This document shows positions 400 to 25,407 of a DNA stretch of 26,138 bases, one piece after another (positions within the stretch are counted from its first letter, which is position 1; each line of letters starts with the position of its first letter). The DNA lies in the IMG/VR virus record IMGVR_UViG_3300009184_000180, positions 1-26,138 of that record, one strand, 5' to 3'. A program made the translations under genes and the position numbers. This DNA comes from a virus. Under the pieces are notes generated by a model. The model made no database searches. It was given only the letters and a program-made list of their open reading frames with translations, and was not told where the DNA came from.

Positions 400-1371
400 T
401 TAGAATTGTTTTGTTCCGTAAGACCCAAATCCTCCGAACCCACCCATGCTTTGCGGGGTGAGGTAACTAGAAACCATATTTGTAGGCATCGACATCATGG
501 GTCCTGAGAAACTCCCGCCGGGGGTAGCACCCATACCCATGCTCGGGATATTAGGAGCTCCATTCCCACCACCTAACATCCCACCTCCTCCACCCAAAAG
601 CCCACCACCGAAAAGCGAAGTCCCCATTTGTCCCATCGAAGAAATAGCACCGCCGGATTGACCGGCCCCAAGTTGGAACCCACCACCTCCGGCAAGACTG
701 CCCAGACCGCCACCCAGCATGCCACCCAAAGCTGTTCCCGCTCCGGGCATAAGGAATGAACCGGCAGCGGCACCAACAAGACCACCAATAGACCCAAACA
801 TACTCCCGCTACTCTGTGCGTTCTGGACATCATAGTTATACTTGTTCATGGCGTTTTGGTTAGCAACATTTGCTTTGTTTGTTGCGTCCTGCAGCTGTTC
901 GCCTCGGAGTTGACCAGTAGAAAATAAATAGTTTTGCGCTTGTTGCGGGCTAAGATAATCAGCCATCTGCAATAAACCGGGAAGGGCGGACATTCCTTGC
1001 GCTTGCAACTGGGATGATAGCTGGCCGTAACTGGCAGCTTCCCCAAAGATTGCGGCTTGGCTTGTTCCGGGCAAACCAGCCGCCATATTTCGGGCGGCAA
1101 ATTGTCTTTGAGCTTCAGCTTGCGTATCCGCCGACGGAGTACCCGATAAAAGTTGGGAAACCAAATTAGCTGACTGTTTGGTAGCGCCAATTGTTCCGGG
1201 TAAACCTTGTTCTAACTGATTCCTAAAACCTTCATTTATAGTCGAAGCAAATTGTTCTAGACCTGGCAATTCAGCACCTTGCCCCATGAACATAGAGAAT
1301 GTTTCCGACAGGGGCACCTTACGAGGAGCCTGCAACTGGGGCGGTGATGGTGATTTGCTACCACCCCCCAT
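400..1371 (-). CDS. Virion protein with glycine-zipper C-terminus, candidate ejection protein
   Basis: A protein of 323 residues. Residues 1-20 are Pro/Ser-rich, residues 25-185 look helical and Gln/Ala-rich, and residues about 190-320 are dominated by Gly with Ala, Met, Ser and Leu. The segment around 192-230 (GSIGGLVGAAAGSF, then GGMLGGGLGSLAGGG) is a glycine-zipper pattern of the type found in membrane-inserting proteins. No enzyme motif is visible. The ATG at 1371 lies 1 nt after the stop of the upstream gene (TAATATG). Similar Gly-rich proteins occur among virion and ejection proteins of short-tailed phages; here a role in crossing the host envelope during DNA delivery is inferred from composition and from its place among tail genes. 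It could instead be a passive structural or adhesin component. Confidence 0.8.
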   Translation of the reverse strand: MGGGSKSPSPPQLQAPRKVPLSETFSMFMGQGAELPGLEQFASTINEGFRNQLEQGLPGTIGATKQSANLVSQLLSGTPSADTQAEAQRQFAARNMAAGLPGTSQAAIFGEAASYGQLSSQLQAQGMSALPGLLQMADYLSPQQAQNYLFSTGQLRGEQLQDATNKANVANQNAMNKYNYDVQNAQSSGSMFGSIGGLVGAAAGSFLMPGAGTALGGMLGGGLGSLAGGGGFQLGAGQSGGAISSMGQMGTSLFGGGLLGGGGGMLGGGNGAPNIPSMGMGATPGGSFSGPMMSMPTNMVSSYLTPQSMGGFGGFGSYGTKQF

Positions 1372-1372
1372 A

Positions 1373-1795
1373 TTAGGCCATCCTCTCCGCTAAAGCCCAA
1401 GGAAGTACACGCATACGCTGGTTATACTTGGCTCCCTCAAAACAAACCCAATCACGGATACCGGAAAGAGCAATCGCGTTACGCACCAGTTCAGTCCGAA
1501 CAGTCTTATCCTCGGACGCCAAGATAACAATTGCCACACCTTTAGCTTTGAAGTCATTTTCCCAACTATGAATATCTTCCGGCTTATCCACAAACTGCAA
1601 AGCCAACACCCCGTCAATCTTCCCTTTGTTGTTTTGGTGTACAAGCAACTGGCCTAAGTCTGCAAAGAACTTGATCATGTCCTTCAAATCCTTTCGGTTC
1701 CAATGCCGATAGAAGGGGATTTTCTTTTCGACGTAGGTTATCACTTGACCATTGATATCTTTCATTTTAAGCCGTTCGTCAATAATTGGTTGCAC
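1373..1795 (-). CDS. Small tail-region protein, weakly acetyltransferase-like
   Basis: A protein of 140 residues with mixed alpha/beta character. The central part has a long helix (about residues 33-52, KDLKDMIKFFADLGQLL), a strand (IDGVLALQFV), and a later strand (GVAIVILAS) followed by a helix, an order reminiscent of the GNAT fold that some short-tailed phages carry as a small internal virion protein. I cannot point to a conserved acetyl-CoA loop, so the resemblance is weak. The longest start is GTG at 1795, forming a TAGTG overlap with the stop of the preceding gene, which suggests translational coupling; an in-frame ATG at 1765 (MKDINGQ) is an alternative, and neither has a convincing Shine-Dalgarno site. 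It sits between the duplicated adaptor-like protein and the glycine-zipper protein, so a virion or assembly role is plausible. Confidence 0.7.
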   Translation of the reverse strand: MQPIIDERLKMKDINGQVITYVEKKIPFYRHWNRKDLKDMIKFFADLGQLLVHQNNKGKIDGVLALQFVDKPEDIHSWENDFKAKGVAIVILASEDKTVRTELVRNAIALSGIRDWVCFEGAKYNQRMRVLPWALAERMA

Positions 1796-3114
1796 TACCG
1801 AAGATTGCCAATTTCACCCATAGCCCACGCCGTACCCTGTACCTGCATGGTCAAACGGTTACCACCCCGCTTCTGTTGGAGCTCGTCCCGCAATAGCTGG
1901 ATAGCCTTTTGTTCGTGGAAAGTATAAAAGTCTGGTTTATCGGCCTGCATAAAAGCGGTGACCATTTCTAGCAGAGCGGGGTAATTACCGACCACCATCG
2001 GGTCAGAATCTTGTGTTTTTGCTGACCACCGAACAGAACCAAGAACAGTCAGAATACAAGGGTCTTCGGGGTTAGTTGGCCGATTAACAAAGATTTTACG
2101 TTTAGCTAATATGGTCCCAGTAGTCTCATCGAATACAGCGTCTTCCCCACGATCTATAACAAGCAACCCATTTGTATTAGTCGTCGTCCTAAAACCAGGA
2201 CCGTTCTCGTGGAAGTCGTATTCTCTGGCAAAAAGGTTTACCCGTTCGGAATTAAAAGAGCAGAACAAAATTGATTCTACGTCATGGGGAAGATACATCT
2301 CTCCACTTTCTGGTACCTCGATATCAAACTGTCTGATCGACCCGTACCAAGATCCGCGGGTAAGCAGATACTCTTCCGCTTTATCAATCAAGTGGAACAA
2401 CGCCGAGTCATCTGTGTGTAACCCGTCTTTAAGATCCAAAGCCATACGAGCTCTCATCCACCCCATAGTCCCCTCAGTTGTGGTCGATACCAAAGATTGA
2501 TAGTTAAGACGACGAGCTCCTTCAAGAGTCTTGTCCAAAACCAAAGATAATCTTTCGACGGCTTTTTGTTCAAAAGCTTGAGCAAGGTCAAGTTGTCCAT
2601 TTTGTTCTCTCCAAAGAGCCAAAAGCATGAGACGCAGAGCGTCAAGATCTTGGATAACCAACAAGTCGGTATTGCTAGCAACAGGAATAAAATTAAGCTT
2701 GCCTGTAACTTCTACGGATTGAGGGAGCGGGCTAATCCCAGAAACTTGGTACGACCGATAATTAGAAGACGTAATTGGTTTTCCAACCCGCAACAAAGTT
2801 TCACTATTCGAAAGAAAAGCCTGTTCAGTATTGGTGAGGAGACCATTTGGTAGAGTGGTGGAAGTTGCTCTAATGATAGTACTTAATCCAAATCCAGAAA
2901 CAGTTGTAATATCCCCTGTGTAATCTGGGAGAGTAAATACTCCGTTCACCAAAGGAAGCGAAAATTTAGCCAATACGCCGAGCCAAGTACGGACCGCATA
3001 GAGGCGTCTCTGAGCCTCGTTAATGCGGGAAATTACCCGATCATCGGTAGGGTAGACACCATTATCAACATAAGTTGATAATGCAGCCTTGGCTTCTGCA
3101 AGTGTGATTGCCAT
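1795..3114 (-). CDS. Internally duplicated adaptor / tail-tubular-A-like protein
   Basis: A protein of 439 residues built of two related halves. Residues 11-70 (helical, with TDDRVISRINEAQRRLY, then a short beta part ending in LP) match residues 225-283 (TDDSALFHLIDKAEEYLL, ending in LP). Residues 155-205 (ALRLMLLALWREQ, then FEQKAVERL) match residues 377-415 (ALLEMVTAFMQAD, then FHEQKAIQLL). An N-terminal helical pair, a beta middle and a C-terminal helix pair are what is expected of head-to-tail adaptors such as T7 gp11, which is about 200 residues long; here two such units appear fused. The ATG at 3114 follows the upstream stop by 3 nt. A connector role is inferred from this architecture and from the surrounding tail genes; the duplication is directly visible. 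Confidence 0.75.
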   Translation of the reverse strand: MAITLAEAKAALSTYVDNGVYPTDDRVISRINEAQRRLYAVRTWLGVLAKFSLPLVNGVFTLPDYTGDITTVSGFGLSTIIRATSTTLPNGLLTNTEQAFLSNSETLLRVGKPITSSNYRSYQVSGISPLPQSVEVTGKLNFIPVASNTDLLVIQDLDALRLMLLALWREQNGQLDLAQAFEQKAVERLSLVLDKTLEGARRLNYQSLVSTTTEGTMGWMRARMALDLKDGLHTDDSALFHLIDKAEEYLLTRGSWYGSIRQFDIEVPESGEMYLPHDVESILFCSFNSERVNLFAREYDFHENGPGFRTTTNTNGLLVIDRGEDAVFDETTGTILAKRKIFVNRPTNPEDPCILTVLGSVRWSAKTQDSDPMVVGNYPALLEMVTAFMQADKPDFYTFHEQKAIQLLRDELQQKRGGNRLTMQVQGTAWAMGEIGNLR

Positions 3115-3550: not shown

Positions 3551-4333
3551 TTATGATGAGAGGATAGCGATAGACGTATAAACAAAATCAATTGCGTTAC
3601 TGGATTGTTGCACAGTTACGAAGTCAACATATCCCGTCGTCGCACTTACGAGCCTAACGCCTGCATCTGCTACACTATTCCACACTTCATTTCCTTGTCC
3701 GACTGTGCCAAGAACAGCGTAATTTGCTGCTGGCATGGCTGTAGCAAAAGTAACTCTAAACCCGCCAGTCGTTGCGCCAGCTATTCTTGTAATACTTGAT
3801 ATATTAAAACTTTGCGTGGAATAAATTGTTAAGTTTCCTCCGTTAAAATTAACCCAAGCCTTTACAGTTCGTTTTGCCACATTGTCTGATTGTGTTACGC
3901 TAGTCGAAAGCATTGGGAACGTAATGCTCCCACTCGGAATACTCTTTGCAACATCGGACCATAAAGCCCGTTTAAGTACGCTATTAACTCCTGCTTGGGA
4001 AACTAAAAATTGGTCGCTGGCGTCTACTGAGGTAATTTGGTTTTTACCGCTGATCAAAGTTTCCGAATACGCGCTACCGGATGATATGTTTCCAGCAAAC
4101 GGGTATTCGAGATAAGCACCGGCAACCGATCTGTATACCTTCAGTCTTGTGTTATCCGATGTGTCTACCCAGAGATAATCAGCAGCGGGAAGGGGACTGA
4201 CTCCGTTAGAGTATAAAACTTTGCTAGATATTGTGAATGCAGGAATCTCCAAGTATTGCGCGAACAACTCCAAGAGATCTTGGGGAGCTCCGTAGCACGT
4301 TCCAGTAGGTAATGTTCCGGGTATTAGGGCCAT
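3551..4333 (-). CDS. Tail fibre protein
   Basis: A protein of 260 residues. The N-terminus (MALIPGTLPTGTCYG, residues 1-60) contains LPAADYLWVDTSDNTRLKVYRS, a short beta module found in virion proteins. Residues about 155-260 form a typical fibre tip: VKAWVNFNGGNLTIYS, SSITRIAG, GFRVTFATAMPAANYAV, and a closing hydrophobic strand. This AWVNFNG plus FTTAMP-type signature is common in phage tail fibres. The ATG at 4333 follows the stop of the RCC1 fibre gene by 4 nt (TAATTTTATG); no Shine-Dalgarno site is seen. It is followed at once by a probable assembly chaperone, the usual fibre/chaperone order. The receptor cannot be predicted. It could be the distal part of a composite fibre together with the upstream RCC1 protein. 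Confidence 0.85.
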   Translation of the reverse strand: MALIPGTLPTGTCYGAPQDLLELFAQYLEIPAFTISSKVLYSNGVSPLPAADYLWVDTSDNTRLKVYRSVAGAYLEYPFAGNISSGSAYSETLISGKNQITSVDASDQFLVSQAGVNSVLKRALWSDVAKSIPSGSITFPMLSTSVTQSDNVAKRTVKAWVNFNGGNLTIYSTQSFNISSITRIAGATTGGFRVTFATAMPAANYAVLGTVGQGNEVWNSVADAGVRLVSATTGYVDFVTVQQSSNAIDFVYTSIAILSS

Positions 4334-4337
4334 AAAA

Positions 4338-6425
4338 TTAGAAGGGCATTGTTATTGGGCTACTTGCATTGTTTGTAGAGTATGGTCCGAGAGAACCATT
4401 TGTCTGAGCCCCGCAACATAACACCTTACCGTTACTCAAAAGAATTCTTAAAGCCACATAACCATAAGAATTATCAACACCGTCGGCCGTTATATCCACG
4501 ATAGATTGTCCATTCGTATTCACCTTGGCAAAACCCCAAGTCGGTAGTTGTGTTGTCGATGCCCCCCTGCCTAGTTGGCCCCAATCGTTTCTACCAGCAC
4601 TATAGAGGAATCCGTTAGAAGAAAGAACATAAGTCGAAAAATAATTATTATTCCCAACTACTACAACTTTTTGGGCAGCCCCGAGAGAAGCGGGGTCATA
4701 AGTCTTAGTGAAAGTTGAATTAACGGTAGCTGTAGCCCCACCAGAACCGTTGGCCCCAAAGTTTCCATGCCCATTATATCCGGCCATCCATAAAGAACCA
4801 TCAGTTTTTTTCAAAACTGTGTAGCTGAAGCCGTTGTCATTCCCTTGGGGTACATAAATATCGGAAACCCCAGTTTGAACCATTGTCGCGTATCCCGAGT
4901 TAGTATCAGTTACAGTTCCATTTCCTAACTGACCGTAATTATTGTACCCAGACGTGTAGACTTGCCCTGAAGCTGTCAACATAACCGTGTGACCACCACT
5001 TCCGTTCGTCGAGCCGAGAATCTTTGTTACTTTTCCTTCTGCCCCCGCTCCTAGGGGGACACCTGCCGATTTGAGATAATAGTTTAAAGCGGTCATGGCA
5101 GTTTGGTTACCCTGACTTAACTGACCATATCCGTTATACCCAGAGCACAAAACTTTCCCATCGTCAGCCCCCAGAGGACTGCCTAAATAAATTCCGCTTG
5201 CGTAATTATTTCCCCAAACATAAGCGTCAGAAAACAGTTTTGTTCCCCCAATTCTGAGCGGTGAGGTTATAGTCGTCTCAGTTCTTCCGAGTTGTTTATC
5301 GCTGTTACTGCCCCACCCATAGGTTTCTCCAGTTGGGGTAATTGCAACGACCGTTTCATAAGTATATTGAGATAGTCTTAATTTAAGTATAGGCAGATTG
5401 TTGAAAGAAGATTGGGGAATCGGGGTAAACATCGTAGAATCGGCTGTAGAACCTAACCCCATGCAACCGTCTCCCCCCGCCCCCGCGGCGTATAGTATTC
5501 CCTGATTAGACAGGACATAAGAAGTTCTCCAACCGGCGAAAACAGCGTGAGCTGCTGGGAAAACATCCCCAACTCCAGAAGAATTTGCGTTAAAAGTGCA
5601 TTCAACTGGGAAGCTTACATCCGAATTACTAGACCCTATCGCGTTTTTGTAGCTATAGTTACCCCCAGTTACTTTGACCTTTCTGTCTTGGGTTATAAAA
5701 AAAGATCCTCTGTAGGATCCAAAATTACCATATGCGTTAAAAGTATTGCAAAGACCATTGGTGCAACCATACGCCACGGCTTTTGCGCTTACTCCCGTAC
5801 CTGTGTCAATAGTTACGGAGGGAGTAATTAAATAACCAGAACCGGGATTAGTGATTGTAACGGAAGAAACCGATCCCGCAGTTAAAACTGCGATTCCGGT
5901 TGCTGTATCCCCAGTAGGTGAAGCAGTAAAACTAACTGCTGGAACAGTTGTATACCCAGAACCTTGATTGTAGACAACAACATTCTCCACCGAACCAGAA
6001 AATATAACAGCAGTTCCAGGTCTTGCCGTCCCTGCGTTTTCAACAAAAGTACGATCGGGTTCACCAAAGTTGGAGATACGCAAAGAACTGGCCGCCAACT
6101 TTATGGCAGTTACAGCTCCGTCTGCTAGTTTTGGAGTTGTAACTGCAAGATCAGAGAGTTTTCCGGTAGACACGGAAATATTGCGAATGTGATTTGTGGT
6201 GACCGCTCTTTCCGAGTCAACGGATGCGCTGGAACTCAAAACATCTGCGGTTACTGCGTTTCCGGCAAGTTGCAAAGTCCCAATTGAATAGTTTGCGGGA
6301 AGAAACATCCCAGCATTTTTAGCGACTAGAAATGAAATACTGTAAGTGCTTGCCCCCTGAACAATTGGAAAGATATCTGTTAAATTAGCCGTAGAGGCTG
6401 CAGGTAATTGGGATATCCTAGGCAT
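4338..6425 (-). CDS. Tail fibre with RCC1-type beta-propeller domain
   Basis: A protein of 695 residues. Residues 1-40 (MPRISQLPAAS...DIFPIVQG) match the short N-terminal attachment module of many phage fibres. Residues 60-112 hold LA-V-T-x-KLA repeats typical of fibre shafts. Residues 148-215 hold two GSGY-x-x-x-P-x-V units. Residues about 301-682 hold RCC1-like repeats, each a strand pair followed by a GYNxxGQLGxG-type loop: around 310, 366, 425, 487, 545, 606 and 666, with a weaker one near 248. Seven blades equals the usual RCC1 propeller. The predicted role is carbohydrate or protein receptor binding at the cell surface; the specific ligand is unknown. The ATG at 6425 has no clear Shine-Dalgarno site. 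The domain content is visible directly; receptor binding is inferred. Confidence 0.85.
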   Translation of the reverse strand: MPRISQLPAASTANLTDIFPIVQGASTYSISFLVAKNAGMFLPANYSIGTLQLAGNAVTADVLSSSASVDSERAVTTNHIRNISVSTGKLSDLAVTTPKLADGAVTAIKLAASSLRISNFGEPDRTFVENAGTARPGTAVIFSGSVENVVVYNQGSGYTTVPAVSFTASPTGDTATGIAVLTAGSVSSVTITNPGSGYLITPSVTIDTGTGVSAKAVAYGCTNGLCNTFNAYGNFGSYRGSFFITQDRKVKVTGGNYSYKNAIGSSNSDVSFPVECTFNANSSGVGDVFPAAHAVFAGWRTSYVLSNQGILYAAGAGGDGCMGLGSTADSTMFTPIPQSSFNNLPILKLRLSQYTYETVVAITPTGETYGWGSNSDKQLGRTETTITSPLRIGGTKLFSDAYVWGNNYASGIYLGSPLGADDGKVLCSGYNGYGQLSQGNQTAMTALNYYLKSAGVPLGAGAEGKVTKILGSTNGSGGHTVMLTASGQVYTSGYNNYGQLGNGTVTDTNSGYATMVQTGVSDIYVPQGNDNGFSYTVLKKTDGSLWMAGYNGHGNFGANGSGGATATVNSTFTKTYDPASLGAAQKVVVVGNNNYFSTYVLSSNGFLYSAGRNDWGQLGRGASTTQLPTWGFAKVNTNGQSIVDITADGVDNSYGYVALRILLSNGKVLCCGAQTNGSLGPYSTNNASSPITMPF

Positions 6426-6602: not shown

Positions 6603-9191
6603 TTATAACACCTCCAATGAGTCTGTTCCTTGGTACTGTTCAAGAATTCTCTGCCCAAGCATGAGAATCCGATTTAATTCGAAATGCCCATCAAATTCCA
6701 ATCGAAGCTGGAAATCGTTACCGTAAATATATGGCCTCGAGATAATTGCATCGGAATCTTCCGGAGGAGTTGGCATCCTGATTTGAGGCCGATATTGGGG
6801 TTGTAAATTCTTAAGGGTAAAATTACTCAAACAAGAACTGTCATTCGCAGCTTTTGCTGGAATAAAAGTAAAGGTTGGAAAATTACCAACATCCCATCGT
6901 ACCTCTAAGTTATTCCAAAAATTTTCTGGATCTAAAGTGTAACTTTCCCAATTTTTTGTGGCTGAACTGTTAATTGTAAAACAATAGTTTGGAAATGTTC
7001 CGGTCCTTGTAACCAAATCGACAACAAAACCGGCGTTATTTAAAGCTACTTCCATCGCCGAAGCTTGCCCAACAGCGTCATCAGATTCAATGTACTGTAA
7101 CAAATTAGTATATACTCCAGCCGAACCAAGCCGGTAGTAAAAGGAGGTCGGACTTTTATCGGAGAAACAAATATTGAAAGCCGACGCATCAATCTCTGTA
7201 AGAGTCACTCCAGGATCAATACAATTATCTGTTGTAGCGCACCTTGAGAAAGAGTGCCATTCTCGCCAACAAGGGTACTGATCCGGTCTCCAATATACTT
7301 TTGCATCTACAGTTCCCGCCAAATCTGAAAGCCAGAAATCAGCTCGGATCATTCGCTTCTGTTCTGCCGGAGACCCGAATGAGTATGCTTTAGTTTCAAG
7401 AATAGATGAAATTCTCTGCTGCCCAGCCGAATTCGGGTAATCAAAAATAGCGTTTGTTGTTATTTCCCAGAGAGAATTGATTCTTCCGTTTGGTATGTCC
7501 AAAGACATGATATACGCTTTGGGTACTCCACCGACCAAACCAGAAAATAATTTCAAAACATTTAGCCCAGCCCATACGCCATCGTAACTTGCGACACGTT
7601 TGGAACCAACAGTCCCTAAAGTTGTAAAGTCTAAGGCAACAATTTTGGAAAAAATCGTCGGTTGAGGAGTCGAAATATTTGGTGGTAACCCAGAGTATAT
7701 AATTGATGGGGTTGCGGTAAACAAAAGCCGGTTATCAAATACAATCGAACTCACATCTCCTAGCATACTTTGATTGTCGAATGACAAAACAGAATTCATT
7801 TCTGCCGACATCGGAACTTGCCCGTAACTACCTAATTCCGCCCTAGCGTTACGGTAGGATCTCAATCCGTCAAAAGACCTAAAGAAAACGTCTGCGTTAT
7901 TTGTTGTAACACTATCTTGGGAGGTTGCCCCGACGCTTGTAAATACAACTCGTTGAAACCCTTGAGTACTATTCCATTGATCTCTTGGTACGGCCACAGC
8001 AAACGAAGCTGTTCCTCTTTCGCAGAACACAAGTAAATCTCCCTGCCCAGTTCCTGTGTCTTGAACTGGCATAAAGACCATCCCGTTAATCTTTCCCATA
8101 AATGACGGAACTTGAAGAGAACCGCCAAGAGCAAGATAATTTGTCTCGGTAAAACGAAGCAAATCAGAAACAGAACCTGCGTTGAATTTTGCGACAAATC
8201 CGCCAGCCCCAGTGGTATTACCTGCGGTAGTAGACGCAAAATCAATATCAAAAATTGTTCCAGACGCATTTTTGATAATCCACGTTCCATTTAAACCCTC
8301 TGATGAAGAATGCCCCGTAACAGTAACTCGATCGCCGTTCGAAAACCCATGATTGGTTACTGTATTAAATCGGTAAGTAGAAGTGGTGTTATTACTTCCG
8401 CTACTTATACTAACTTGAGAAGTGCTACCCCCATAAACTAAATCACCCGCGGTTATAACCAGTTTGTCGGAGCTAACAACAAAAAGTCTTCCTTGCCCGT
8501 ACGCCATTATTGTTCCAGAACCTATAGTGTGCAACTGCGATTTTAGCCCTGTCGACCCCGTTGAGCCAATTCCCGAATAGAACAAATCATTGCCGTCAAA
8601 TATTAAAGGAGTATTTTTCCCATTTTGGATAATCAAATATTGTTCAGCTTGGACAAAATAACATTTTTCTACCACGCTAAAACTTGGAGAGAGTAGTTTG
8701 GCAATTCCGGTTCCTGACCCAATTCCTGTTGCGGTAAATTGAGTACCTATCGCAGGGCTATCACCTGCCCCAATTGATGTCCAATCCGTGTTACCTAATG
8801 CAGAAATAATATAAACTTTTTCTGTTTGGATAAATGCAGCGGGAATTATCGGAGTTAACTGGTCCACAATACGGGTACTCAAATCAATTTTTACGACATA
8901 CCCGCCAAAAACACCAATTATGGAAGAATTATAACCAACACGACTGTCCTGATAAAAATAAGATCCTTGAAAATTTTGTTTGGTAAATGCTTCGTTTCCA
9001 GAAAAAGCCCCAGAAAATAAAGATACTTGTCTAAAACCAGGCCTAGTCCGAGGACGACCACCCCTAAAAGTAAGGTTGACCGCCGTAGCTACGGCATTAG
9101 CAGATATAAGTGTTGGGGAAAGACTTGAATCCATCCCACCCGAAAAATCCTGTTGTCCCTCAAGGATTAACGTAGAGTCAGCGATGGGCAT
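6603..9191 (-). CDS. Large tail nozzle/hub-like protein with inserted beta domains
   Basis: A protein of 862 residues. The N-terminus (FSGGMDSSLSPTLI, then ANAVATAVNLTFRGGRPRTRPGF, residues 16-53) is the type of opening seen in tail nozzle or tail tubular B-like proteins, followed by propeller-like beta repeats (QYLIIQNG, PLIFDGN, GRLFVVSSDKLVITAGD, DVFFRSFDGLRSYRNAR). Two small domains interrupt this framework: residues about 122-166 (NTDWTSIGAG...QFTATGIGSGTG) and about 257-335 (NHGFSNGDRVTVTGH, NGTWIIKN), both of types that recur in unrelated virion proteins. The last 300 residues are beta-rich with several Trp and Cys. The ATG at 9191 lacks a Shine-Dalgarno site (ATATTTTATG). The size and gene order fit a short-tail nozzle/hub; a large minor tail protein is the alternative. 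Confidence 0.75.
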   Translation of the reverse strand: MPIADSTLILEGQQDFSGGMDSSLSPTLISANAVATAVNLTFRGGRPRTRPGFRQVSLFSGAFSGNEAFTKQNFQGSYFYQDSRVGYNSSIIGVFGGYVVKIDLSTRIVDQLTPIIPAAFIQTEKVYIISALGNTDWTSIGAGDSPAIGTQFTATGIGSGTGIAKLLSPSFSVVEKCYFVQAEQYLIIQNGKNTPLIFDGNDLFYSGIGSTGSTGLKSQLHTIGSGTIMAYGQGRLFVVSSDKLVITAGDLVYGGSTSQVSISSGSNNTTSTYRFNTVTNHGFSNGDRVTVTGHSSSEGLNGTWIIKNASGTIFDIDFASTTAGNTTGAGGFVAKFNAGSVSDLLRFTETNYLALGGSLQVPSFMGKINGMVFMPVQDTGTGQGDLLVFCERGTASFAVAVPRDQWNSTQGFQRVVFTSVGATSQDSVTTNNADVFFRSFDGLRSYRNARAELGSYGQVPMSAEMNSVLSFDNQSMLGDVSSIVFDNRLLFTATPSIIYSGLPPNISTPQPTIFSKIVALDFTTLGTVGSKRVASYDGVWAGLNVLKLFSGLVGGVPKAYIMSLDIPNGRINSLWEITTNAIFDYPNSAGQQRISSILETKAYSFGSPAEQKRMIRADFWLSDLAGTVDAKVYWRPDQYPCWREWHSFSRCATTDNCIDPGVTLTEIDASAFNICFSDKSPTSFYYRLGSAGVYTNLLQYIESDDAVGQASAMEVALNNAGFVVDLVTRTGTFPNYCFTINSSATKNWESYTLDPENFWNNLEVRWDVGNFPTFTFIPAKAANDSSCLSNFTLKNLQPQYRPQIRMPTPPEDSDAIISRPYIYGNDFQLRLEFDGHFELNRILMLGQRILEQYQGTDSLEVL

Positions 9192-11127: not shown

Positions 11128-11460
11128 TTAACCCCAAGGCAAAGGTTGAGTTTGTGGGGTTGGGGGAGGATTTAAAATGGAATTAATCTGCCCGTCGATA
11201 CAAGCATAAATAGAATTGACCCCGTTTTCCCCGAGTGCTGACTGAATCCATCCAATAACTTGTTGTTCGGTCAAATCTTCATAGGGGGTAAATTCTCCAC
11301 CCGTGTAAGTAAATTTTTGTGCTCCGCTAATGCCAGCAATTGTTTGGTCTTTCGCCCCCGTAACATTGTACACTGCAAGAACAACAACATCAGTTTCTCC
11401 ACCCTGTTTAGGTAGAACACTCATGCTAGTAACTTTCCAAGTGAAGATTGTATTGCTCAT
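11128..11460 (-). CDS. Small phage structural-region protein of unknown function
   Basis: A protein of 110 residues: a beta-rich N-terminal part (TIFTWKVTSMSVLP, ETDVVVLAVYNVTG, QKFTYTGGEFTPY), then a helix (LTEQQVIGWIQSALG), a second helix (VNSIYACIDGQINSIL) and a proline-rich tail ending LPWG. This order (FTWxV strand, TPYxxLTExQVxxWV helix, C-terminal LPW) recurs in small proteins of many aquatic phages, usually of unknown function. The ATG at 11460 overlaps the stop of the fibre gene as ATGA, which indicates coupled translation. No Shine-Dalgarno site is seen. Position between a fibre and the lysis cassette suggests a virion or assembly role, but no activity can be claimed. Confidence 0.75.
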   Translation of the reverse strand: MSNTIFTWKVTSMSVLPKQGGETDVVVLAVYNVTGAKDQTIAGISGAQKFTYTGGEFTPYEDLTEQQVIGWIQSALGENGVNSIYACIDGQINSILNPPPTPQTQPLPWG

Positions 11461-12947
11461 GCGTTATAATACGGAATTTGGTAAGCATTTGCTCCAATGC
11501 GAACACGAATATATCCAACTGGATTAGCAGTCAGAGCACTCGCTCCTCCATTTGCTCCGATATTTGTTTTGGTTGCGAGGGTGGAAGCAAATGCAATTTC
11601 TCCGTCAACTTGTGCTAAGGCGCCACTACCAAGAACAATACAATTAGACCGTGCTCCCGCATTGACATCTGCGGTGGCCCCGATAATAATATTATTTGAC
11701 CCAGTAGTAAGTGTGTCGCCAGCTTGAGCCCCTAAAGCAGTATTACTTGGCCCAGTAGCATAAAAAAGTGTATCAAATCCGCAAGCGGTGTTATTATTAG
11801 AAGTTTGATTTGTGTACAAAGAACCTTGTCCCATAGCCGTATTATTAGATCCAGTTGTTAGATTAAACAAAGGACTATTTCCGATAGCCGTATTATTTTG
11901 TCCACTTGTGTTAACCCGAAGAGAACCTTGTCCTATAGCCGTATTGTTAACCCCAGTTGTATTAGCACCGAGACTATTAACCCCGTAAGCGGTAAGTGAG
12001 GACCCGGTTGTGTTAGCAGATAAAGAATTTACCCCGCAAGCGGTGTTGTTTCCCCCACTTGTATTCGCAAAAAGAGCGTTAGTCCCAATGGCGGTATTAT
12101 TGCTTCCAGATGTGTTAGCGTTTAAAGCTGAGGAGCCAACAGCAACATTCGAAGCAATACTACTATTGCCTCTGCTTAAAGAAAGCCCGTTTACTTGACC
12201 ACACGCGAACTCATTAGAAGCTCCTCGGAGGACAATCGTACTAGCAGTGTTAACTGAGGTAGCAGTAGTGGCTGAATTCGAAACTTTGCCAGCCGTAGAA
12301 ATTGTGGCTAGTTTTGTATCCGCAATTGAACCTGCGGGGATTGTCGAAGCTATTGAGATATTAGCGGACCCATTGAAAGAAGTTGCTGTTCCGGTTATAT
12401 CGCCAGAAATCGCAATTGTCCTAGCAGTTGCGAGAGTAGTTGCCGTGCTGGCGTTACCAGTTAAAGACCCTGTGATCGCCCCAGTCACATCCAAGGTTCC
12501 AGCAACAGTCGTGTTTCCAGTCGAGGCAGCAACGGTAAACCTATTTGCGGCTACCGCAAAATTGCCACTACAGCTAAGCGTAGTTGAAGATACGGCCCCA
12601 CTGAAAACACCGGAAGCAGCAGAAAATCCGCCGAACACAGTCGTAGCCCCGGTAGCGGAGTCCACGGTAAATCTATTAGTATTGACAGAAAAATTACCTG
12701 CAACTGTTGTAACTCCGGTAGTCCCATTAACTGTAAATTTACTGCTACCAACAGCACCTACATCAAAATTACCGGTGCTCCTAAAAGTACCAGTTATTGT
12801 TGCCCCCACAGTCCCTAAAGCAAGAGCTGAATTATTGTTAACTCCGTCCTGAATCGTGGTTTGCGTACTACCGATAAAATTAGCTGAGGTCGTCGTTAAA
12901 AGCCGACCATATGTAGAAGCAATGGTATTTCCAGTTAAAGCTGCCAT
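11457..12947 (-). CDS. Tail fibre with YadA-like 17-residue repeats
   Basis: A protein of 496 residues. Residues about 59-151 contain three units of the form GNFxV...FTVxxxTGxTTVxG. Residues 152-240 are a Thr/Ala/Ser-rich linker with DITGTATSFNGSANI and GSIADTKLATISTAGKV, typical of fibre shafts. Residues 266-428 hold ten imperfect repeats built on NNTAIG-x-x-x-L-x-x-NT-x-G with a period of 17 residues, the left-handed beta-roll seen in YadA-type trimeric adhesins. The C-terminus ends GYIRVRIGANAYQIPYYNA, a common phage fibre ending; no S74 peptidase chaperone is present. The ATG at 12947 has a TAGGAGGAA site 6-7 nt upstream, so strong translation is expected. It is probably trimeric and involved in adsorption; the receptor is unknown. 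Confidence 0.87.
   Translation of the reverse strand: MAALTGNTIASTYGRLLTTTSANFIGSTQTTIQDGVNNNSALALGTVGATITGTFRSTGNFDVGAVGSSKFTVNGTTGVTTVAGNFSVNTNRFTVDSATGATTVFGGFSAASGVFSGAVSSTTLSCSGNFAVAANRFTVAASTGNTTVAGTLDVTGAITGSLTGNASTATTLATARTIAISGDITGTATSFNGSANISIASTIPAGSIADTKLATISTAGKVSNSATTATSVNTASTIVLRGASNEFACGQVNGLSLSRGNSSIASNVAVGSSALNANTSGSNNTAIGTNALFANTSGGNNTACGVNSLSANTTGSSLTAYGVNSLGANTTGVNNTAIGQGSLRVNTSGQNNTAIGNSPLFNLTTGSNNTAMGQGSLYTNQTSNNNTACGFDTLFYATGPSNTALGAQAGDTLTTGSNNIIIGATADVNAGARSNCIVLGSGALAQVDGEIAFASTLATKTNIGANGGASALTANPVGYIRVRIGANAYQIPYYNA
11664..12152 (-). repeat. Ten imperfect 51-bp coding repeats
   Basis: Within the fibre gene, the N-x-T-A-[IMCL]-G core recurs at residues 266, 283, 300, 317, 334, 351, 368, 385, 401 and 418, i.e. 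every 51 nt with one 48-nt step. The DNA repeats are degenerate, so the array is old or under selection for protein shape rather than a recent slippage expansion. Confidence 0.8.
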
Positions 12948-15953: not shown

Positions 15954-16649
15954 CTATGCTAAAAGTTTATCCAGTTCCTGTCGGTTGTTATCTATCCCAC
16001 CCCAAGACCAAAACTGCCTAACCGTATCCTTATCCTGTTTAGGATCTCTCCACTCAAACTTATCTCTATGGTGCTTCCAAGCATATGCCCCTAGGGTATT
16101 ATACTCGCTAAACCTACGATCTGGACGAGTAGCAACGAAAGTGTCAAAAGGCACTTTATGGGTAGCCTGTAAAAAATCCCTCATCTCCTTGTATATCCAT
16201 CTAGGGAAGATGTGTGGCGGACGACGCATAAACTCAAATTCGGGTTTCCAGCCTATAGCTTCCTGTACAATTGGTTGCCAAGGGCATTCTCCAATTTTAT
16301 CGTATGGCTCGTAGTATATAATAGCTTTCCCCTTATGGATGAAATCCTTGGGAGAGACATCGTGCAACCAGACGGTATCGGAATCAATATGGCATATGAA
16401 GTCGGCATCAGAGTAGAGATCAGCGTTTAGCTTGGTTACTTGCTGACCCAAATAATCCTCTGCGTACCTAGGGCAGATATGTACTTTTTCCAAGGTAAGA
16501 TGATTCAGTTCGTGTTGGTCACCATGCGGTACCACAATATGGATCTGGCGAAATCCCTTAGCTGACTTGGCACAGGACTTAAGACAGTAGGATAACCACT
16601 CAAAGTCTTTCTTGTAACTACGGATGAATAGGTCTACAGAGGCTTGCAT
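15954..16649 (-). CDS. Glycosyltransferase, DxD type (DUF6492-like)
   Basis: A protein of 231 residues with a GT-A-like layout: an N-terminal strand (VDLFIRSYKKD), a second strand (QIHIVVPHG), and ICHIDSDTVW (residues 85-94), where Asp89-Ser-Asp91 is the metal/nucleotide-sugar-binding DxD. The arrangement (IRSYKxD at the start, HIDSD in the middle, FSEYNTLG near residues 180-187) fits the DUF6492 glycosyltransferase group. It would transfer a sugar to an unknown acceptor. The ATG at 16649 overlaps the methyltransferase gene by 16 nt; three overlapping sugar-related genes form one unit. It ends just before the capsid promoter. The target may be a virion protein, a host surface glycan or nucleic acid; position next to the capsid gene favours, but does not prove, the first. 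Confidence 0.8.
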   Translation of the reverse strand: MQASVDLFIRSYKKDFEWLSYCLKSCAKSAKGFRQIHIVVPHGDQHELNHLTLEKVHICPRYAEDYLGQQVTKLNADLYSDADFICHIDSDTVWLHDVSPKDFIHKGKAIIYYEPYDKIGECPWQPIVQEAIGWKPEFEFMRRPPHIFPRWIYKEMRDFLQATHKVPFDTFVATRPDRRFSEYNTLGAYAWKHHRDKFEWRDPKQDKDTVRQFWSWGGIDNNRQELDKLLA

Positions 16650-17287
16650 AAAAGATCGTATTGGGGTCCTTCCTCGGGCGGGAATGATTGTAATTCGTAC
16701 CCAAGTTCAGATCGTAGATAAGTGATTAATGAGATCGGTGATTCGCCTCGTTGTTGTAAAGCGTGTTCGTTGACCTCGACCCACATGACTGGACGATGCT
16801 TTGTGATAGTTTTCTTAGCTCCCTTCAAAGCGGATACTTCAAATCCTTCTACGTCCAACTTAAAGAAATCCAGCCGAGGTAGATCGTACGAGTCCAGAGT
16901 TACCACAAATACAACCCTATCCCCAGAATCAGTTATACGACTAGAACCAGCGTTATCGGCTACGGAAAAGAACTGGCTACTTGGTTTATTGCTAAGTCCA
17001 GCTTTGACCGTTATGGCCGAAGGACAGTTGTAAACTAAACACTCGTAGGCAGAAATGTTGGGTTCGAAGGCGTAGACTCTCCCAGTAGAACCTACAGCCC
17101 TAACATAGGCGACGGTGTGATCACCAATGAAAGCCCCAGCGTCGACGACGTAATCGCCATCTTTGATATGCTTTAGGATAATCGGGAGAGAATATTCGTC
17201 GTGATCCAACTTCCCGGTCTCTTCGACCCAGCGGGAAATATGCGAATCGTTTTCTAGTACCGCAACGTTATTCGGTAGGATTTTCAC
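16634..17287 (-). CDS. FkbM-family SAM-dependent methyltransferase
   Basis: A protein of 217 residues with the full FkbM motif set: VVDAGAFIGDHT (residues 47-58, SAM-binding loop), VYAFEPN (71-77, acidic end of strand 2), LDFFKLDVEGFEVSALKGA (139-157) and RPVMWVEVNE (165-174). FkbM enzymes O-methylate sugars and similar hydroxyl groups, so it probably caps or decorates the glycan built by its two glycosyltransferase neighbours. The start is GTG at 17287 (GTGAAAATC), 20 nt inside the upstream gene, with AGGA about 9 nt before it. Overlaps on both sides show the three genes are translated as a unit. The substrate is unknown. Confidence 0.87.
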   Translation of the reverse strand: MKILPNNVAVLENDSHISRWVEETGKLDHDEYSLPIILKHIKDGDYVVDAGAFIGDHTVAYVRAVGSTGRVYAFEPNISAYECLVYNCPSAITVKAGLSNKPSSQFFSVADNAGSSRITDSGDRVVFVVTLDSYDLPRLDFFKLDVEGFEVSALKGAKKTITKHRPVMWVEVNEHALQQRGESPISLITYLRSELGYELQSFPPEEGPQYDLLCKPL

Positions 17288-18026
17288 TTTCAGGTTTCCT
17301 ACGCGTTTTACGTTTTTTCGGTTTAGCCTCAGGAATTTCGAATGCTTCTACCTTTTTTGGCATCCGGCGTTCACGAAGTCTTTCAATCAATGTGCCGTCC
17401 TTATTCTGATGAAACAACAAAGCTTCTTTACTAACCATAGCATCAACGCTAGCCTGATCTGGGAATGTAAAATTACGCCCCTCGTCTTTACGCCAAACGT
17501 GTTGAATAGATTTTGTCCAATTGGCTTGCCCAACAATCTGCTCAGCACCGACAACGTCAAACGCAGCAAGATCGGCATGAATAAGATTAAACGCTCGTTC
17601 CATCACGTTCTTTGGATAGATAGCATTACCACTCATATGCTCGGGGGTCCCTTCGACTTTGACCTGAGCGCCCATAAAATACTGACCGCAAGTACGGTAC
17701 TCTGAATCTAAAAAATCCAGCCACCCTGGCGCTAAAGGGATACAGTCTGGTTCACACCAAAAATAAGCCTCGGGGTTTGTCCCCCAAGTAATATGTTGAG
17801 CCACCCGCTTGAACAAATGATTTGGGCTCATAGGCCAGCCACGCTCGTCCTCATCATGCGGGACATACAGTTCGTAATGCCGACTGATTTCGGTTGGGTT
17901 CGCTACTCTACGGGCACAAGCAACCATCAAGCGATGGCTACCGATTCCTCCAAGTTCTTCAACCCAATCCACCCAGCGAATCGCCTGCTCCCGATCCTGA
18001 GGACCGACTGGCAGTACGACGAGCAT
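17268..18026 (-). CDS. Glycosyltransferase-like protein with basic C-terminal tail
   Basis: A protein of 252 residues. It begins with a strand (MLVVLPVGPQD) and helix (REQAIRWVDWVEEL), has a second strand (HRLMVACAR), and carries YFWCEPDCIPL at residues 88-98, where Glu92-Pro-Asp94 takes the place of a DxD motif of GT-A enzymes. Later motifs include a VVGAEQIVGQANW segment and LLFHQNKDG (203-211), whose His could bind the sugar nucleotide or metal. The last 25 residues are strongly basic and Pro-rich (KPKKRKTRRKPE), perhaps for binding nucleic acid or an acidic partner. The ATG overlaps the scaffold stop as TAATG, which ties its translation to the head genes. Acceptor and donor are unknown. 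Confidence 0.75.
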   Translation of the reverse strand: MLVVLPVGPQDREQAIRWVDWVEELGGIGSHRLMVACARRVANPTEISRHYELYVPHDEDERGWPMSPNHLFKRVAQHITWGTNPEAYFWCEPDCIPLAPGWLDFLDSEYRTCGQYFMGAQVKVEGTPEHMSGNAIYPKNVMERAFNLIHADLAAFDVVGAEQIVGQANWTKSIQHVWRKDEGRNFTFPDQASVDAMVSKEALLFHQNKDGTLIERLRERRMPKKVEAFEIPEAKPKKRKTRRKPESENPTE

Positions 18027-23696: not shown

Positions 23697-24206
23697 ATGA
23701 TCTGGATGGTAGCTATTGATCCCGGAGCAAGCGGAGGTATTGCATCCGTAACTGTTAACGGTATGGTCGATGCCGTAAAGATGCCTGAGACTGAAGGAGA
23801 TGTGCTGGGTAAACTAAAGAGTTTGCGGACTTATCACGATGTTATTGTCATCGAACAAGTCGGTGGGTACGTAGGTGGGGCGGGAAGTCCCGGCTCAGCA
23901 ATGTTTAACTTCGGTCGTGGGTTTGGTTTTATTTTGGGAGTCTCGATGACACTTGGATTTAGAATTGAAATGGTTCGCCCTCAGGCATGGCAGAAAGCTT
24001 TGAGCTTGGGAAATAGCAAAGGAATGGCAAGTAAGACGGAATGGAAGAACAAGTTAAAAGCTGAAGCACAAAGACTATTCCCAAATTTAAGCGTGACATT
24101 ATCTACGGCGGATGCACTATTGATACTCGAATATGGCAGACATCATATTGTTCGAGTGGCAGAAACCGGGAGCGGAAGCGCTATTACAAAGTCTTCGGAC
24201 AAATAA
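23697..24206 (+). CDS. RuvC-like Holliday junction resolvase
   Basis: A protein of 169 residues with RuvC-type acidic residues: Asp8 in VAIDPGASGG, Glu53 in VIVIEQVGG, and Asp139 in STADALLILEYG. The first strand, glycine-rich loop and C-terminal helix match the RNase H-like fold of phage resolvases, which cut branched DNA before packaging or during recombination. The start is ATG 23697 or ATG 23706 (MVAIDPG); AAGAG at 23692-23696 has a suitable 9-nt spacing only for the latter, so the protein may be three residues shorter. Its last 74 nt overlap the helicase gene in another frame, an unusually long overlap. It opens the plus-strand block with helicase and nuclease. Confidence 0.87.
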   Translation: MIWMVAIDPGASGGIASVTVNGMVDAVKMPETEGDVLGKLKSLRTYHDVIVIEQVGGYVGGAGSPGSAMFNFGRGFGFILGVSMTLGFRIEMVRPQAWQKALSLGNSKGMASKTEWKNKLKAEAQRLFPNLSVTLSTADALLILEYGRHHIVRVAETGSGSAITKSSDK

Positions 24207-25407
24207 TGTAGCTCTCGACGCCAGCGATACTGGCACGGGTAAGACAGCTAAAGCAGTTTGGTTAGCCCAACAACTAAAAGCGGACGTAATCGTAGTCTGC
24301 CCAAAAGCAGTTATCCCGTCTTGGAAAGAATGGTTAGATCGAGGGGGTATAACGCATGACGTTATAAACTACGAAAAACTAAAGACGGGTAAGACAAGGT
24401 TTGGTAAATGGAACGACGCCAAAAGTTGGGAGTGGACTTTTAGGGGGGCTAAACTTTTAATTTTTGACGAGGTCCATCGTTGCAAGGGGGCCACAAGCGT
24501 TAACGCCAAGATACTTACGGGGTCAAAGAAGTACCCAGTACTAATGTTGTCAGCGACAGCTGCAGAGAATCCGCTGGACATGCGAGCGACAGGCTTCATG
24601 TTAGGTCTCCATGAATACCACGACTTCTACCGGTGGAATTACAAAATGGGTTGTCGACCTGCCCCATGGGGCCGTGGTCTGGCTTTCATGGGCGGAAAGA
24701 AAATGTTACAAGAAATTCATAAATCTATTTTCCCGTCTAAGGGGCACCGCATCCGAATCGCCGACCTTGGGGACGCTTTCCCAAGCAACTCCGTGTTTGC
24801 AGAGTGTTACGACATGGGGGACGTTGACGTCATCTACGAAAAAATGCAAGCGCAGCTTGCGGAGTTGCGAAGCAAACGAACGTCCGAGAACCCGCTCACA
24901 ATCAAACTCAGGGCGAGGCAAGAAGCGGAGTTGATGCGTGTACCTGTCTTTCTCGAGCTTACGGAACAGGCAATCGCAGAAGGAAATGCTGTCGTTGCTT
25001 TCTTCAACTTTCGACAATCACTTGAAGCCTACCGAAAGCTTGTCAGAGAGGAATCGGCAGAAATCATTGGCGATCAAAAAGATGAAGACCGTGTACAAAA
25101 TATCGCGGACTTCCAAGCAAACAAAGTAAAAATATGTGCTTGCATGATTCAAGCAGGTGGTGTTGGATTGTCGCTCCATGACCTGCAAGGAGTACCAAGA
25201 ATCAGTCTTATCGCGCCGACATACTCGGCGATCGAAACCAAGCAGGCTCTCGGAAGAATTCATCGCGCAGGAGCTTTGTCTGCCAGTCGGCAATACTTGC
25301 TTTTCGCAAACGGAACCGTTGAAACACAAATCGCTAGGAGCCTCCGCCGAAAACTTCACAACATCGAAACACTTTCGGACGGGGACACATTAGGAGCAAT
25401 ACTATGA
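24133..25407 (+). CDS. SNF2-type superfamily 2 helicase
   Basis: A protein of 424 residues with the full SF2 motif set: LFEWQKPGAEAL (Q-motif-like, residues 6-17), DTGTGKT (32-38, Walker A), VIVVCPKAVIPSW (52-64, Ia), LLIFDEVHR (108-116, DEVH), LMLSATAAENP (137-147, III), IQAGGVGLSLHDL (339-351, V) and QALGRIHRAG (371-380, VI with Arg375 and Arg378). It lacks accessory domains and is short for a SNF2 enzyme, which is usual in phages. It would translocate on DNA with ATP, probably in recombination-linked replication. The start ATG lies 74 nt before the resolvase stop; no ribosome site is obvious, so coupling to resolvase translation is likely. It overlaps the next gene as ATGA. Confidence 0.9.
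   Translation: MADIILFEWQKPGAEALLQSLRTNNVALDASDTGTGKTAKAVWLAQQLKADVIVVCPKAVIPSWKEWLDRGGITHDVINYEKLKTGKTRFGKWNDAKSWEWTFRGAKLLIFDEVHRCKGATSVNAKILTGSKKYPVLMLSATAAENPLDMRATGFMLGLHEYHDFYRWNYKMGCRPAPWGRGLAFMGGKKMLQEIHKSIFPSKGHRIRIADLGDAFPSNSVFAECYDMGDVDVIYEKMQAQLAELRSKRTSENPLTIKLRARQEAELMRVPVFLELTEQAIAEGNAVVAFFNFRQSLEAYRKLVREESAEIIGDQKDEDRVQNIADFQANKVKICACMIQAGGVGLSLHDLQGVPRISLIAPTYSAIETKQALGRIHRAGALSASRQYLLFANGTVETQIARSLRRKLHNIETLSDGDTLGAIL

Follow-up and report, generated by a model that had tools for sequence, protein, structure and literature searches.

How is a head-to-tail adaptor assembled when the unit that forms its ring occurs twice in the same chain? In phage SU10 the adaptor has one unit per chain and forms a dodecamer, according to the available excerpts of PMC9509320. 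The question is raised by a gene in the window, the 26,138-nucleotide stretch of viral DNA analysed here (IMG/VR record IMGVR_UViG_3300009184_000180), whose minus strand appears to carry a structural operon. A first-pass annotation had described positions 1795 to 3114 as a fused tandem duplication of an adaptor-like domain; these coordinates are correct, and the gene is a single minus-strand ORF of 439 amino acids, in which the following parts can be recognized.

1795 to 3114, minus strand: two-unit adaptor-fold protein of 439 residues, recognized from the ORF, the homology of its halves, and fold matches
2479 to 3114, minus strand: unit 1, residues 1 to 212, recognized from its PF24175 score, the model, and a match to the phage P1 connector
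1798 to 2478, minus strand: unit 2, residues 213 to 439, recognized from a match to SU10 gp11 (7z47_A), the model, and a conserved tail
2464 to 2493, minus strand: junction of the units, about residues 208 to 217, placed from the secondary structure of the model

The motifs named in the first-pass annotation are all present twice and in identical order, with TDDRVISRINEAQRRL in half 1 and TDDSALFHLIDKAEEYL in half 2, followed by FTLPDY and MYLPHD and then by ALRLMLLAL..FEQKA and ALLEMVTAF..FHEQKA. The two halves are homologous, and the proposed duplication is confirmed. BLASTP of half against half gives an E value of 1e-4 with 21% identity across 203 residues of half 1, and the local alignment score of 66 is reached by none of 1,000 shuffles (mean, 30.4; s.d., 4.7). 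Identity between the two units is 21 to 24%, and a profile of half 2 recovers half 1 of the same gene with an E value of 5.8e-5. Profile-profile comparison, with an alignment that spans 190 columns, strengthens as relatives are added to each side, the E value falling from 1.3e-6 (7 sequences per side) to 4.2e-13 (9 per side) and 9.2e-17 (16 and 17).

Both halves are adaptor-fold units, as judged from a model of moderate confidence. In the full-length AlphaFold2 model (mean pLDDT, 68.8; pTM, 0.46), each half is predicted to follow the order helix, helix, strands, helix, long helix, so that different folds for the halves, the outcome set beforehand as counting against duplication, are absent. 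Unit 1 has helices at residues 5 to 16, 25 to 40, 157 to 171, and 175 to 211 with a strand-rich middle at about 46 to 155; unit 2 has helices at 217 to 228, 236 to 252, 378 to 389, and 394 to 416 with a strand-rich middle at about 257 to 375, and ends in a tail (416 to 439) that is conserved and modeled with low confidence. At the junction, almost no gap separates the long helix that ends unit 1 from the helix that opens unit 2 in the model. Foldseek against the PDB ranks SU10 gp11 best (E value, 8e-6), followed by GP4, DEV, and cyanophage A4 portal-tail complex chains, among others. A structural aligner places SU10 gp11 (7z47_A) on residues 203 to 423 (Z, 11.6; rmsd, 4.0; 182 aligned) and the P1 connector (9ums_A) on residues 3 to 204 (Z, 8.3; rmsd, 4.0; 160 aligned), with half 1 also matched by chains of Carin 1 (Z, 8.1, over a range that extends to residue 249) and Kp7 (Z, 6.9). 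As each half has matches of its own, an adaptor fold is indicated for both. The PhicrAss001 chain 7qog_B also matches the model (Z, 8.2). Unit 1 predicted alone gave a poor model (pLDDT, 45.7), and its fold list, headed by 8zkk_B (Z, 8.1), is for that reason given no weight.

In an hmmscan against the SU10_adaptor profile (PF24175), the whole protein scores 31.7 bits and unit 1 scores 35.0 bits, where the cut-off is 27, and unit 2 has no match to this profile. At E values up to 0.1, PF24175 matches 6 of 16 first units and 3 of 17 last units of the relatives (best last-unit E value, 4.4e-4). A search of 12 viral records with PF24175 gave no match, although the window protein passes the hmmscan cut-off; its controls likewise gave none, so this search carries no weight. 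No adaptor turned up when PDB sequences were searched with the protein or with whole-protein, first-unit, and last-unit profiles. The head-tail adaptor-like identity first proposed for the fused units is thus backed by sequence profiles as well as by fold.

When the protein is placed among its relatives, its two units are seen to be the low end of a series from two to ten, which is invisible from a single sequence. IMG/VR was searched with the whole protein, its halves, and short first units, giving 124 adaptor ORFs of which 89 are distinct (80 of 104 candidates were kept in the last search), and units were counted with an iterated profile of helices 3 and 4 together with a last-unit profile. 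At the same locus, other uncultured phages have 2, 3, 4, 6, 7, 8, 9, or 10 units. The 66 complete single-ORF proteins comprise 25 with two units, 21 with three, 2 with four, 7 with six, 3 with seven, 1 with eight, 2 with nine, and 5 with ten; three series split between ORFs add counts of six, six, and seven to make 69 rows, and in 12 of these the count does not divide 12. One group has lengths of 779 to 781, 883 to 884, 988, and 1196 amino acids, in steps of about 104 residues, and in the short-unit group the internal repeats are mostly exactly 104 residues apart (102 to 105 for most). The divergent last unit of the short-unit group escapes the counting profile, and one unit was added per count because profile A6, built without this group, finds the last unit in all seven members checked with E values of 3e-38 or better. 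Left out of the counts, because they run off a contig end or have an ambiguous start or stop, were 19 of the 89 distinct proteins, among them L127 (closed after four units), L175 and L177 (alternative starts), and L117 (cut), as well as L114, a split series with at least seven units before its cut end. The series of L127 (7318 to 8697) stops at four units, through either a frame break or a real truncation; its group otherwise has at least six.

The phages of this family are uncultured and probably short tailed. None of 50,697 annotated phage records was matched by tblastn with the window protein, L011, L116, or L094 (E limits of 0.01, 1, 0.001, and 0.001, respectively), scans of bacterial and archaeal genomes found no relative, and ten records with a related terminase, most of them fragments, gave no adaptor match. 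L043, which has the longest downstream stretch among the latter, looks like an unrelated contig. Pfam matches of L101 and L116 (DUF3615, PAX, and others) were rejected as repeat artefacts, being short and scattered with no stretch that passes alone. In BFVD, viral proteins of 583, 1139, and 512 amino acids align to the model over 474, 486, and 464 columns, respectively, gaps included, and carry no functional name in the tables; members of the family may therefore be deposited yet unrecognized.

The make-up of the units varies along the chain. The last unit has a strand-rich domain in all members checked, and middle units consist of helices only. The domain is present in both the first and the last unit of two- and three-unit proteins and of the six-unit L094, and the middle units of L094, like those of three-unit proteins, are without it; in the short-unit group the first unit also lacks it, leaving the last unit alone with the domain. 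In SU10 the fibre dock and the loop that embraces the portal lie in the corresponding strand-rich part of the chain. A chain of intermediate sequence comparisons suggests that the short repeats are adaptor units: unit 1 of the window protein matches the short first units (E value, 5.8e-28), the short first units match the internal repeats (E value, 1.7e-14, with none of 20 column-shuffled controls better than 0.029), and the internal units of L094 match the last unit of the window clade (E value, 1e-10). Compared directly by hhalign, the internal 104-residue repeats and the window units give no significant match (probability, 2.8%).

Whole units have been gained or lost. L148 and L149 are 94.6 to 96.1% identical in their aligned flanks of about 16 kb, and the difference between their adaptor genes is a single in-frame 312-base unit, on either side of which the sequences continue without other gaps. 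On a tree of last units, built for the 69 rows by a quick method and subject to inflation by recombination, unit number changes at least 14 times. The internal repeats of L101 are 63 to 80% identical in protein, which makes simple assembly collapse unlikely there. In L117, two tandem 312-base units (residues 473 and 577) are 99.4% identical in DNA, and this pair may be a very recent duplication or an assembly loop. In four contigs the series is spread across consecutive ORFs, with every break inside a unit; that of L114 is cut, and the other three are as follows.

L100, 8001 to 10608: six units in three adjacent ORFs
L148, 7974 to 10891: seven units in three adjacent ORFs
L149, 8001 to 10579: six units in three adjacent ORFs

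In these three, the ORF breaks fall within a unit, between helices 3 and 4, so that a chain starts with the helix that finishes the unit of the previous chain. The chains on either side of a break thus seem to make up a unit together, an arrangement that suggests packing of each unit against the next.

The surroundings of the adaptor gene add further structural candidates. We take the terminase, portal, scaffold, and capsid genes of the window as named from their position and characteristic family features, tblastn support from annotated terminases, itself weak, being confined to the terminase. The following minus-strand genes are shared with relatives.

400 to 1371, minus strand: glycine/alanine-rich protein of 323 residues adjoining the adaptor gene, a candidate internal protein, with homologues near the adaptors of L077 (two units) and L151 (three units)
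3551 to 4333, minus strand: protein of 260 residues; 9 of 12 relative loci encode a homologue immediately upstream of the adaptor gene
6603 to 9191, minus strand: conserved protein of 862 residues, a candidate nozzle or muzzle by gene position

Read in the direction of the genes, the one for the 862-residue protein lies upstream of that for the adaptor; 11 of the 12 relative loci examined encode a homologue, and the protein gave no PDB or Pfam match naming a function. A tail-region protein of 695 residues (4338 to 6425, minus strand) has repeated G.N..GQLG-type motifs, with four motif matches, which we take to recall RCC1 beta-propeller repeats. Many NTAIG/NTACG repeats, presumably resembling the head of trimeric adhesins, are found in a protein of 496 residues (11457 to 12947, minus strand), short parts of which recur in other loci. 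Three genes between scaffold and capsid (15954 to 18026, minus strand) presumably encode sugar- or methyl-transferases, with 16634 to 17287 appearing FkbM-like, and this is an unusual place for transferases. Two plus-strand ORFs (23697 to 25407), divergent from the structural genes, are by resemblance presumably a RuvC-like resolvase and a helicase.

For the arrangement of the fused units, the first-pass annotation had offered a six-chain ring or two stacked layers. We consider it somewhat better than an even chance that the protein is a head-to-tail adaptor of the SU10/T7 kind with two fused units, in a family with two to ten, and that twelve chains form n stacked rings. Below the portal, each of the twelve chains would contribute one unit to every one of the n rings; the number of units would then set the height of the neck or tail barrel, and the strand domains at the chain ends would meet the portal, fibres, or nozzle. 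An odd number of units is incompatible with chains that place two units in each ring. We infer twelve chains, their stacking, its direction, and an effect of height on tail length; for stacking along the tail axis, it is the unit counts that speak. A tail barrel of five stacked dodecameric rings, made from four paralogous, separately encoded ring proteins, is described for PhicrAss001, an exception among podoviruses otherwise seen with one adaptor-type ring (PMC10172136, available excerpts). Its five rings measure about 23 nm, and by analogy one additional unit would be expected to lengthen the barrel by roughly 4 to 5 nm. Helix-only rings stacked between strand-domain rings were not found described for SU10 or PhicrAss001 in the available excerpts of PMC9509320 and PMC10172136.

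It is unlikely that the fused units instead represent alternating quasi-equivalent subunits of one ring of 12 made by six chains, although such a ring would match a six-fold nozzle and six fibres. Two neighbouring SU10 adaptors differ in their fibre-dock loops and jointly hold one fibre (PMC9509320, available excerpts), so that a fused pair could be the A-B pair of a six-chain ring, and the window protein indeed keeps the strand-rich middle in both units. However, same-locus homologues have 3, 7, 8, 9, or 10 units, and as a ring of 12 cannot be made up of chains with seven to ten units, a stack fits better; the six-chain rule would apply to the two-unit group alone. The stacked layers of the original proposal are thus favoured by these relatives, whereas the six-chain ring fails as a rule for the family and could hold for the two-unit protein by itself.

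An outward helical arm, with one unit, probably the last, forming the ring and the others serving, for example, as a fibre holder or collar, is possible in the many-unit members and improbable as a general account. It would agree with a last unit that always has the full SU10-like domain while the number of others varies, and with internal units that have no strand-rich middle. Against this, internal spacing of mostly 102 to 105 residues leaves little room for a linker, the two-unit group has strand domains in both units, and the breaks of split ORFs inside units suggest tight contact and not a loose string. There is very little likelihood that the protein is no adaptor at all and is a tandem-repeat structural protein of another role sharing the fold. 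Its role is read from fold and gene position, but the SU10_adaptor score is above the cut-off, the high-ranking fold matches are nearly all portal-tail or neck adaptors, and in each of the 12 records searched the half 1 and half 2 profiles detect a single adaptor gene, with no second. Returning to the stacked rings, it is conceivable, with a probability slightly short of even, that the linked units act as a digital length ruler, setting barrel height between 2 and 10 in recombination steps of one 312-base unit, equal to one ring.

Per unit, the window protein is alike in fold to SU10 gp11 (PF24175) and to the T7 gp11 and KP32 adaptors, with unit 1 matching the profile, and the helix bundle and strand-rich dock domain of SU10_adaptor proteins are both predicted in the moderate-confidence model. 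It likely shares the place of SU10 gp11, whose dodecamer sits between the portal and a six-fold nozzle (PMC9509320, available excerpts). It differs in having two units in one chain, with 2 to 10 in relatives, where SU10_adaptor proteins have one. Similarly, in the PhicrAss001 tail barrel (R1 to R4) a single virus supplies several adaptor-fold units with little identity between them, but as separate stacked chains from separate genes (PMC10172136, available excerpts), whereas here the units are fused and their number changes by whole units; both units of the window protein lie in one ORF, and the four relatives with split series are divided inside units. The phage P1 connector matches unit 1 in fold and differs as a chain of 188 residues, about one unit. 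P22/Sf6-type adaptors are single-unit proteins as well. Like the internal units here, they are without a fibre dock domain (PMC9509320, available excerpts). The unit fold is therefore known already; among solved adaptors none with fused units was found, and neither fused or multi-unit adaptors nor the counting of units was found described in the titles or abstracts of the literature searched.

As the number of units predicts the number of rings or of chains, the question of symmetry is testable, and near-identical phages one unit apart, as with L148 and L149, form a natural experiment. In long-tailed phages, tail length is generally attributed to a tape-measure protein. If fused units are counted in whole steps, tail or neck height would be set in a different manner, by discrete increments, and the fused units of this family may be a modular means of setting neck or tail length.
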